NCBI RefSeq assembly: GCF_900142565.1
Contig: NZ_FRBH01000004.1
Coordinates: 62,001 to 126,000, forward strand
From: Chishuiella changwenlii
GTDB taxonomy: Bacteria; Bacteroidota; Bacteroidia; Flavobacteriales; Weeksellaceae
Direction of reading: 5' to 3'
Length of the DNA stretch: 64,000 nt
Both the position numbers and the translations under genes were made by a program. Position 1 is the first letter of the stretch. Each line of letters begins with the position of its first letter. This document shows positions 10,085-12,121 of the stretch, one piece after another. The notes beneath the pieces were generated by a model. That model was not told where the DNA came from. It searched no databases and saw only the letters and a list, made by a program, of their open reading frames with translations.

Positions 10085-10792
10085 ATGAAAAAAATATTCA
10101 TTTTATTTCCTATCTTTTCAATTCTATTTGCGTTGATTATGAATAGTTGTTCTAACAATATAAAAGATCGTTCTACAGTTTTTCAAAAATTTATAATTCC
10201 AGAAAAATTAATTCAATTAAAAGAAATACAAGACGGAGATTTAATTTTTGTTGGTGCACAAACAGAAGAACTTTCAGGTGCAATAAGCAGAGTAACAAAA
10301 ATATCAAATGAAACAAATTTTGATCATGTTGGTTTAATTGAAAAAACTGCTGATTCTATTTTTGTTTTACATGCTGCTCCAATGGGAGGATCTCAACGCG
10401 AAGAAATTCATCATTTCTATACTTCTCAAACAGAAAAGAAAAATTTAATTGTTATTTACAGGTTAAAAAAGGAGTTTCAACCTAGTATTCCAAATGCGAT
10501 TATAAAAGCTAAAACAATGTTAGGAAAACCATATAATTGGTTATATATATTGAATGATGATGAATTGTATTGTTCTGACTTTATTGAACGAGCTTTCCGA
10601 GATGACAAAATATTTGAATTAATTCCGATGAATTTTAAAAATAAAGAAACTGGAATTATTGATAATTTTTGGATTGATTTCTATAAAAAGAAAGGTAAAG
10701 ATGTTCCACAAGATGAGCCAGGTACAAATCCAAATCAGTTAGCGACTTCTGAGAAATTAGAAAAAATTGGAGTTTTAGAGTTAGAAAGGTAA
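10085..10792 (+). CDS. YiiX-like permuted NlpC/P60 lipoprotein hydrolase
   Basis: 235 residues with a lipoprotein signal peptide (ALIMNSCSNN, lipobox Cys near residue 22). The catalytic signatures of the permuted papain-like YiiX/YebB group are present: QDGDLIFVG, then FDHVGLIEK (His) and ELYCSDFIERAF (Cys). The likely substrate is an amide in the envelope (peptidoglycan stem or lipid), but this is inferred from the family only. The C-terminus is coded up to the TAA at 10790-10792; the repeat region begins just after. Confidence 0.8.
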   Translation: MKKIFILFPIFSILFALIMNSCSNNIKDRSTVFQKFIIPEKLIQLKEIQDGDLIFVGAQTEELSGAISRVTKISNETNFDHVGLIEKTADSIFVLHAAPMGGSQREEIHHFYTSQTEKKNLIVIYRLKKEFQPSIPNAIIKAKTMLGKPYNWLYILNDDELYCSDFIERAFRDDKIFELIPMNFKNKETGIIDNFWIDFYKKKGKDVPQDEPGTNPNQLATSEKLEKIGVLELER

Positions 10793-10815
10793 TTTGTATG
10801 TCCTTTAGAAAACAA

Positions 10816-10863
10816 AAGCATTTATTAATATAGATAAGGCTATTCAATTTGAAAAACATGCAA
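10816..10863 (+). pseudogene. Decayed 3' fragment of a GIY-YIG gene
   Basis: The sequence TTTATTAATATAGATAAGG and the following CTATTCAATTTGAAAAACA closely match the intact GIY-YIG gene around 11123-11163, then jump directly into the palindromic repeat at 10869. This looks like an older copy of the same gene-plus-repeat unit that has lost most of its coding sequence. Confidence 0.65.
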
Positions 10864-10868
10864 AATTC

Positions 10869-10935
10869 TTCGACAGGCTCAAAATGACAAGGAATTTAAT
10901 AATAAAAAGAACACTGTCACGTTGAGCCTGTCGAA
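10869..10935. repeat. Palindromic repeat copy 1 (TTCGACAGGCTCA type)
   Basis: A 13-bp arm TTCGACAGGCTCA (10869-10881) and its exact complement TGAGCCTGTCGAA (10923-10935) flank about 41 bp. The arms are much richer in GC than the surroundings. Copy 2 lies at 11253-11319; the two bracket the GIY-YIG gene. Confidence 0.85.
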
Positions 10936-10962
10936 ACGTTAAACCTAATTAATTGAATTATT

Positions 10963-11271
10963 ATGAAAAACTATTATGTATATATCATAAAATGCTCAGA
11001 TAAATCTTACTATGTAGGAATAACAAATAATATTGAAAGAAGAATTTTCGAACATCAAGAAGGTATTGATCCTTATAGTTATACATTTAAAAGAAGACCA
11101 ATAGAATTAATGTTTAAAAAAGAATTTATTAATGTAGATCAAGCTATTCAATTTGAAAAACAATTAAAAGGATGGAGTAGAAAGAAAAAAGAAGCTATTA
11201 TAAATAATCAATGGGATAAACTTTCCGAATTATCTAAAAACAATCAAGATTCTTCGACAGGCTCAGAATGA
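10963..11271 (+). CDS. GIY-YIG nuclease family protein (UPF0213-like)
   Basis: 102 residues, a single GIY-YIG domain: YYVYIIKCSDKSYYVGITNNIERRIFEHQEG carries the GIY-YIG strand pair and the conserved Arg, and FEKQLKGWSRKKKEAI carries the catalytic Glu region. The last residues (DSSTGSE) are encoded by the left arm of the second palindromic repeat, so the gene's stop codon lies within the repeat. The molecular target is unknown. Confidence 0.85.
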   Translation: MKNYYVYIIKCSDKSYYVGITNNIERRIFEHQEGIDPYSYTFKRRPIELMFKKEFINVDQAIQFEKQLKGWSRKKKEAIINNQWDKLSELSKNNQDSSTGSE

Positions 11272-11319
11272 CAAGGAATTCAATAATAAAAAGCCACCTG
11301 TCTCGTTGAGCCTGTCGAA
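11253..11319. repeat. Palindromic repeat copy 2 (TTCGACAGGCTCA type)
   Basis: The same 13-bp arms are at 11253-11265 and 11307-11319. The inner part (TGACAAGGAATT, AATAATAAAAAG) is shared with copy 1. The left arm supplies the end of the GIY-YIG coding sequence. Confidence 0.85.
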
Positions 11320-11367
11320 ACGTTGAACCAACACATTTTAAAAACCTATAAATAAAATTACTTAATA

Positions 11368-11706
11368 ATGGACAATCAAAATAAATTTACAATCATATAT
11401 TCGTTCAAAATTTTCGATAATAAAGATATCGAATTTATTCAATGTTGGAAAGAGCTAACAGAATTGATTTACAAATTTGAAGGTAGTTATGGTTCAAAAC
11501 TCCATAAAGTGAATGATAACTTATTTATAGCTTATGCTCAATGGCCTAATAAAGATGTTTTTAATCAATCAGGAAACAATCTTCCAAAAACTGCTAATAG
11601 TTTAAGACAAAAAATGCGTGAATGTTGTGTAGAAATAAAAAAAGAATTTGAAATGAATAGTATAGTTATTGATTTATTAAGTGATAAACAATACAATGAT
11701 ATTTAA
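11368..11706 (+). CDS. Antibiotic biosynthesis monooxygenase (ABM)-like protein
   Basis: 112 residues with a ferredoxin-like alpha/beta pattern: FTIIYSFKIFDNKDIEFIQCWKELTELI, GSYGSKLHKV and LFIAYAQWPNKDVF are typical of the ABM/dimeric barrel fold. The specific reaction is unknown; many such proteins are uncharacterised. It probably forms a short unit with the two small membrane protein genes that follow (10-bp gap). Confidence 0.6.
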   Translation: MDNQNKFTIIYSFKIFDNKDIEFIQCWKELTELIYKFEGSYGSKLHKVNDNLFIAYAQWPNKDVFNQSGNNLPKTANSLRQKMRECCVEIKKEFEMNSIVIDLLSDKQYNDI

Positions 11707-11716
11707 TTTATAAAAC

Positions 11717-12121
11717 ATGCTTTTAATTAACATCTTAATAATATTATCCATTAATTTATTAATAGGAATTGAAACTAAAGCAAAGAATAAAATAATTCTT
11801 ATTGTTTTATTAGTTATTGGATTTATAACTTTAAATCTAACCTTTAAAACATTCGAAAATCTTTCTCTTATATATATTGTTTTATTGTTTTCTCTAGGAA
11901 TTATTCTCACGAAACTATTTGAAAAATATGCTCCTATAAATGGTAAAATTGAAGGCTCTGAAAATTTCAAAAAATTTAGATTTGTAATTTTTAGAATTAT
12001 TTTTCCATTTTTAATAACTGTTTTTCAAATTTTATTACTTAGCAATACTAAATTACAAAAAGATATATTAGATAACAATCAACAGAAGAATCAACAAAAT
12101 CTCATAAAAGCTATTAAATAA
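11717..12121 (+). CDS. Small integral membrane protein, unknown
   Basis: 134 residues with membrane segments near residues 2-17, 24-42, 48-68 and 90-112 and a Gln/Asn/Lys-rich cytoplasmic tail. No family is recognised. It starts 10 bp after the ABM-like gene and precedes another membrane protein by 16 bp. Confidence 0.55.
   Translation: MLLINILIILSINLLIGIETKAKNKIILIVLLVIGFITLNLTFKTFENLSLIYIVLLFSLGIILTKLFEKYAPINGKIEGSENFKKFRFVIFRIIFPFLITVFQILLLSNTKLQKDILDNNQQKNQQNLIKAIK

Follow-up and report, generated by a model that had tools for sequence, protein, structure and literature searches.

A GIY-YIG gene between inverted repeats

At the centre of the locus we see a short, single-domain GIY-YIG gene (10963–11271, forward strand; 102 amino acids), lying within the window—the whole stretch of 64,000 nucleotides of Chishuiella changwenlii DNA that was analysed. 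Its product matches PF01541 with an E-value of 1.8e-18, has the conserved residues intact, and carries a C-terminal SKN, the tail of type A (see below). In agreement with an initial sequence-only reading of this DNA, the gene sits between two 67-bp palindromes (10869–10935 and 11253–11319), both with the exact 13-bp arms TTCGACAGGCTCA. Each palindrome is a pair of REPs arranged tail-to-tail: R1 (10865–10889, reverse strand; closing an older, decayed unit) with R2 (10915–10939, forward strand; TGTCACGTTGAGCCTGTCGAAACGT, with a type A core), and R3 (11249–11273, reverse strand; TGTCATTCTGAGCCTGTCGAAGAAT on that strand) with R4 (11299–11323, forward strand; the outer REP on the 3′ side of the gene). 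All four are 25 nt in length and start with TGTC; after the tag come a short stem, the core TGAGCCTGTCGAA and the other, matching half of the stem. The gene is flanked by R2 and R3, whose tags face outward (‘HH’), and the sequence of this 359-bp unit (10915–11273, forward strand) runs TGTCA...TGACA; the TGACA end of R3 provides the stop codon of the gene (TGA, 11269–11271), placing it inside the downstream repeat, as had been noted. The arm occurs at four sites in the window, all exact, against a mean of 0.50 in shuffled sequence even with two mismatches allowed; palindromes arising by chance are ruled out by the shuffle, reversed-sequence and locus-background controls.

Joined to the first palindrome on its upstream side is a decayed GIY-YIG fragment (10814–10865, forward strand), 87% identical over 52 nt to positions 11118–11169 and also matched by tblastn (23 residues, 61%), bearing out the earlier suggestion that an older piece of the same gene lies here. 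Read from the sequence, the fusion of fragment and palindrome looks like an internal deletion of 80 bp, between AAAAACA repeats, at the R1 junction. As the R1/R2 and R3/R4 pairs are 88% alike, spacers included, and a decayed GIY-YIG end is fused to R1, we read the locus as a tandem, in part decayed, of gene-REP-spacer-REP units. The sequence-only reading had gene and palindromic repeat spreading as one unit; the notion of a joint unit holds, in that inverted REPs flank the gene across phyla, but the unit that recurs elsewhere is the gene between its inner REPs (10915–11273), the 67-bp palindromes being the seams of adjacent units.

The neighbouring ORFs at 10085–10789 and 11368–11703 gave no match in Pfam to a methyltransferase, the partner expected beside a GIY-YIG restriction enzyme. 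The interval 11368–12121, 3′ of the GIY-YIG unit, holds two ORFs (112 and 134 amino acids), for which tblastn found no match between the flanking genes in 12 collinear congeners; this gap looks like an insertion hotspot, since some congeners carry different extra sequence there.

The repeat family and its hairpin

Counting the 13-mer arm across the genome, as the sequence-only reading had suggested, gives 24 exact sites and a further 35 with one mismatch, compared with none in a control read backwards. All 20 exact sites outside the window were taken as own-genome stretches for examination; ten of the 20 hold HH pairs without a gene, 11 pairs in total, and in eight of the 11 the cores are separated by 24–27 nt. 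One further stretch of this genome (L165; G000:C9:64000-65400) has type-A REPs and type-C-like sequence together.

Across 39 own-genome REPs (those of the 20 stretches, of stretch L191 and of the window) the three variable stem pairs are Watson–Crick in 36/39, 33/39 and 34/39 cases, against shuffle means of 18.9, 16.2 and 23.8; in the 80 loci of the profile scan described below, Watson–Crick pairing holds at the third pair in 123/130 type-A REPs (shuffle mean 35.0) and in 93/101 type-B REPs (shuffle mean 26.8), with related copies inflating all of these counts. From this covariation, the REP hairpin is probably under selection. In the same scan loci [CT]GTC stands at a fixed place in 104/130 type-A and 88/101 type-B REPs, and an outer A-T pair is present in 31 of the 39 own-genome REPs.

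These features invite comparison with the CGTC-tagged superfamily of Di Nocera, De Gregorio and Rocco (2013; PMC3733652). As described there, its members have a CGTC, TGTC or CCTC tag, a stem of 8–9 bp starting with A-T, a loop of 4–5 and an unpaired tail, mostly CCA, occur predominantly as head-to-head dimers, and include the dRS3 repeats of Neisseria and RPE-4/6 of Rickettsia; the paper also places REPs mostly downstream of coding regions, describes the superfamily as one whose members ‘apparently lack a dedicated transposase’, and found no tyrosine transposase gene with flanking CGTC repeats. Our repeats share the CGTC/TGTC/CCTC tag, the A-T stem start and the HH dimers, and several of the proteobacterial loci discussed below also have perfect stems of 7–9 bp, and many proteobacterial REPs have the CCA tail; what differs is that our repeats go with a GIY-YIG gene, whereas the paper reports no dedicated enzyme for theirs. 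Whilst the described stem is of 8–9 bp, REPs of the window’s genome have a short stem ahead of a bulged core, and those of the window itself have a bulged stem of 4–5 bp, a larger loop region and no CCA tail; because of this difference in stem and tail we call the window’s REPs CGTC-like rather than members of a described family.

The enzyme

Searched against Pfam, the 102-residue protein matches only PF01541 and an overlapping T5orf172, with no separate DNA-binding domain; neither NCBIfam nor PHROGs has a family for it. Six residues (Y7, Y17, G19, R27, H31 and E65), which we take to have catalytic roles, are invariant in 21 aligned rows, the window protein included. The predicted structure (pLDDT 81.9, pTM 0.66) has the UPF0213 structures 1zg2 and 1ywl as its nearest folds, followed by Slx1, with moderate TM-scores of 0.5–0.6. 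Single-domain proteins of the UPF0213/YazA type share both sequence profile and fold with the window protein; the Bacillus and Listeria yazA genes examined, however, lie in the order trmN-yazA-rsmI without REPs, unlike the window gene. Slx1 is a larger protein that works with Slx4 and cuts branched DNA, whereas the window protein is a lone domain. GIY-YIG homing endonucleases are also known, including freestanding ones; these resemble the window protein in their catalytic domain and in apparent mobility, but differ from it in that the latter has no separate DNA-binding domain that we could find, and has REP hairpins flanking its gene.

The gene family has two members in the window’s genome, that of the window included. 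PF01797 (Y1_Tnp, RAYT-type) is absent from this genome at an E-value of 0.001, the controls being detected.

Association of gene and REPs in relatives

A profile scan of 84,980 genomes, with a query (A1) built from relatives whose flanks had mostly been viewed already, gave 562 confirmed matches, of which the best 80 by protein similarity were kept. In these best 80 of 562 a REP is located within about 300 bp of the gene at 68 loci, and on both sides at 48; REP density is 2.76/kb near the gene and 0.081/kb far from it, a 34-fold difference, with a single match for the structured REP scan in shuffled sequence. The orientation seen in the window also prevails in its relatives: on each side the innermost REP faces outward at 46 loci versus inward at 12 (46/58). 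At 11 of the 80 a REP starts exactly 20 nt before the stop codon, as it does in the window. An inverted flank match scoring at least 14 is present at 48/77 GIY loci (three of the 80, at edges, being excluded) versus 8/649 control ORFs of the same loci. The link between repeat and GIY-YIG gene put forward in the sequence-only reading is upheld by the scan and, as set out below, REP type tracks nuclease type.

Among the matches listed, 61 were typed as a family sample. In this sample, drawn from the window’s own family, a REP of type A–D is found at 55 of the 56 typed CSD-clade loci and at 0/5 loci of the ‘YVYILTNK’-clade (0/3 among held-out loci); four of those five, read by eye and without a formal count, have other TGTC-tagged hairpins. 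Y1_Tnp loci have a type A–D REP in 0/12 cases (12 of 42 listed, a single locus being taken from each of 12 genomes of this sample).

Counted per genome, REP cores have a median of 28 and a minimum of 11 where a type-A gene is detected (n = 17, two of these having a decayed gene only), a median of 2 in 131 other genomes (p = 1.2e-10, by a test that ignores relatedness), and a median of 6 in the 36 genomes with other GIY types only. Repeats abundant without any GIY-YIG link had been named as evidence that would weigh against the idea; we see that the repeats are most numerous in genomes that carry the matching gene, but that at least 15 cores are present in 12 of the 131 genomes without a detected type-A gene, which argues against strict dependence. 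Type-A genes may be missed in these counts, as typing covered the matches listed. Three larger GIY-domain genes of the window’s genome have no A, B or D core within loci of 3.1–3.2 kb; a loose type-C pattern occurs 1, 5 and 0 times at them, so this control is not clean.

Coupling of enzyme clade and REP type

A typed REP is present at 89 of 94 loci (A 32, B 32, C 19, D 6), with one REP type alone at 85 of the 89. On a tree of 92 of the 94 proteins (two truncated ones being excluded) the REP label changes 12 times, compared with a shuffled mean of 47.9 and uncorrected for relatedness, falling to seven times when untyped rows are ignored. Six genomes—the window’s, G007, G009, G021, G022 and that of Epilithonimonas mollis—each contain two GIY clades and two REP types, so the pairing is not simply host background.

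The residues that follow the conserved KKEALI helix track REP type in 122 typed proteins, the fitted set in which the motifs were picked by eye: S[KR]N for type A (29/35; 4/87 others), CxNx[ST]H for type B (40/45; 0/77 others), [SAV][KR]KxF for type C (31/32; 0/90 others), and SKRKF or AYRD for type D. The A and B motifs are found again in KGYM, a clade apart, where 15/15 members match. In a held-out test drawn from an order-wide search (60 matches examined, 2 dropped, 44 predictions) the motif gave the correct REP type in 39/44 cases, against a permutation mean of 16.7 and a maximum of 28 in 10,000; all 44 proteins share less than 90% identity with every fitted one, and for those less than 70% identical to any fitted protein 12/15 were correct. 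The five misses comprise one tie and four loci without a REP by regex; read afterwards, those four have GAGTG...TATCGA hairpins that fit the prediction, a post hoc observation left uncounted. Saying this, the permutation, tree and count tests all ignore relatedness. Judged from sequence comparison, the computational case for a cognate pairing of small GIY-YIG nucleases with CGTC-like REPs is strong.

Wherever REP-encoded codons exist, the motif precedes them. At two loci (L028 and L032) the GIY-YIG frame apparently traverses the repeat, gaining the C-termini GIAGQARNDAA and GFDSAQPDTV.

Presence and absence at orthologous sites

In 12 of 13 congeners no GIY-YIG gene lies between the C92 peptidase gene, which in the window precedes the unit, and the conserved genes that come next; the 13th is rearranged at this site. 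A second site, between cinA and a dicarboxylate symporter gene, is occupied in two congeners and empty in seven, with G010 nearly identical around the insertion point. One fixed orthologous locus, a state that the sequence-only reading had named as contrary evidence, is ruled out, as congeners lack GIY-YIG at both sites; the presence/absence polymorphism that it had proposed to check is real. In G003 (L047, L062) the C92 peptidase gene and the dicarboxylate symporter gene have become joined, with REP-like remnants next to the junction; this looks like the outcome of a rearrangement that broke close to both GIY/REP sites.

Azospirillum lipoferum has a GIY-YIG unit with REP pairs on both sides, located between sufB and sufC (L301, 11986–12279). 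At the Azospirillum suf site the insert is present in one record, whilst the other 11 listed each align as two segments that lack it; its absence was confirmed by reading A. oryzae and A. ramasamyi, which are about 95% identical. These two empty sites (L312 and L313) have no REP, and the intergenic region also differs around the insert. Eleven records of Sphingobium sp. Tom strains include seven that cover their site fully (one with a partial GIY match) and four without the insert, as judged by coverage. One empty allele, that of strain TomTYG74, was read: it consists of a lone palindrome tagged at either end, made up of the left arm of one REP and the right arm of the other. Such a structure could have come from two inverted palindromes by deletion between their 8-bp direct repeats, or could be the target of homing. 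REP-like pieces persist in this allele and also at the cinA/symporter site in G010 and G003, so all three may have lost the unit and need not represent the state before insertion. We saw no target-site duplication, and the empty sites yielded no cut-site or target-site rule.

A different arrangement is seen in G022 (L183, 14700–16700; G022:C1:870700-872700), where four GIY-YIG genes stand in tandem about 375 bp apart, just after tRNA-like sequence; behind each of them lie a palindrome and a stretch that resembles part of the tRNA.

More distant bacteria

REPs like those of the CGTC families are present within 350 bp in 14 of 17 non-control distant loci (11 of the 14 first viewed and all three new ones) and in 0/2 yazA controls; at L291, L292 and L298 the formal scan found no REP within 350 bp. 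In the 11 distant loci with 24-kb flanks, 8 of them previously viewed at 1 kb, REPs are nine times as dense near the gene as in the remainder of the locus, on a scan background that is not negligible (35 matches in shuffled sequence); the Photobacterium locus, one of the three new ones, has 34 further REP matches far from the gene. GIY matches in the plasmid collection often have around them REPs that resemble those which Di Nocera et al. (2013) placed in CGTC families, and a Neisseria gonorrhoeae GIY copy has eight dRS3-like repeats around it. In Planktothrix (L307, 11989–12273) a DISARM defence cluster includes a GIY-YIG gene with TGTC-tagged repeats, flanked by drmA and an MmeI-type gene.

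Discussion

The features computed here are the association of gene and repeat, a preferred orientation, hairpin covariation, the coupling of clade to REP type, a predictive tail motif, and presence/absence at orthologous sites. We consider it likely that the gene encodes the dedicated partner nuclease of TGTC-tagged REPs resembling the CGTC class, and that gene and two inverted REPs together form a small mobile unit. Because the gene is found between inverted hairpins in many bacteria, and each enzyme type has its own repeat type, the small GIY-YIG protein is probably the partner enzyme that has been missing for this widespread kind of bacterial repeat.

In its layout the unit resembles the REPtrons of REP/RAYT systems, with one small gene between inverted REPs and non-autonomous REP pairs elsewhere; those systems, however, have a GTAG tag and a Y1 (HUH) transposase that cuts single-stranded REP at the tag, whereas the window has a TGTC tag, a different hairpin and a GIY-YIG nuclease (PF01541), in a genome without Y1. 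The analogy drawn in the sequence-only reading, with an enzyme of another type, has therefore stood up, both in the window’s genome and at the 12 Y1 loci. REP-gene-REP would be a ‘REPtron’ in which a GIY-YIG enzyme replaces the RAYT transposase, and REPs that stand singly or in pairs at other places in the genome would be its non-autonomous relatives. The protein may ‘read’ the REP loop through its C-terminal tail and could, as a structure-specific nuclease, cut the extruded hairpin or cruciform; given that Slx1, which with UPF0213 supplies its nearest folds, cuts branched DNA, cutting of an extruded REP hairpin is the natural inference. Repair of the break would then copy REPs, or the whole REP-gene-REP, to sites, or lose them, in line with the idea of the sequence-only reading that the nuclease may mobilise the repeat.

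The best-surviving alternative, though in our view an unlikely one, is homing, in which the nuclease would cut bare REPs elsewhere and the gene would copy itself in by double-strand-break repair, with the REP arms as homology and REP spread having another cause. GIY-YIG homing enzymes exist, the gene does sit between REPs, and the single Sphingobium palindrome with a tag at either end is what a target might look like; yet deletion between 8-bp direct repeats accounts for that palindrome just as well, the empty Azospirillum sites L312 and L313 are without a REP, and the window’s genome has 11 gene-less HH pairs, in half of the 20 stretches, against two members of the gene family. Less probable again is a caretaker role, with an Slx1-like enzyme resolving REP hairpins, and so protecting the chromosome, whilst REPs spread by other means. 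Such a role sits well with the nearest folds (UPF0213 proteins and Slx1) and with hairpins whose stems covary, but leads one to expect conserved sites where we see polymorphic ones; the correspondence of clade and tail with REP type better fits a cognate selfish pair, and the two yazA relatives examined have no REP.

That REPs of separate origin often land beside the gene, or serve as its terminator, and are left untouched by the protein, we hold to be very improbable: REPs do lie mostly downstream of coding regions (PMC3733652), and a REP end supplies the window gene’s stop codon, but against this reading stand the 34-fold enrichment over the rest of the same loci, the 8/649 control ORFs, the 0/12 Y1_Tnp loci, and a REP type that co-varies with clade and tail. 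Ordinary RAYT-mobilised REPs with an incidental GIY-YIG gene are the least credible reading of all, rejected for the window’s genome, which has no Y1, and unlikely in general, since although 14 of the 17 genomes with a type-A GIY gene also encode Y1_Tnp, the three of the window’s genus among those 17 do not, the 12 Y1 loci examined (of 42 listed) have no type A–D REP, the tag is TGTC and not GTAG, and Di Nocera et al. saw no tyrosine transposase gene flanked by CGTC repeats (PMC3733652).

Returning to a dedicated GIY-YIG partner, we found no earlier report of such a pairing with REPs in the open-access material searched, where absence is no proof. A broader proposal, on which we are evenly balanced, is that a nuclease of about 100 residues with a loop-reading tail is the sole enzyme of CGTC-type REPs: a new class of mobile element, working through cut hairpins instead of HUH or DDE transposition, from which a repeat class that ranks among the commonest in bacteria may have arisen (dRS3 and the palindromes of alphaproteobacteria and Bacteroidota included). 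The present work supplies a specific candidate enzyme for REPs described as enzyme-less in 2013 (PMC3733652). Since many hosts offer matched substrates, and there are a motif for specificity, empty sites in nature and a catalytic domain open to mutation, the question becomes directly testable. If correct, the pairing would give a function to many small genes annotated as ‘GIY-YIG nuclease family’, and would explain why some of them have terminal codons encoded by a repeat.
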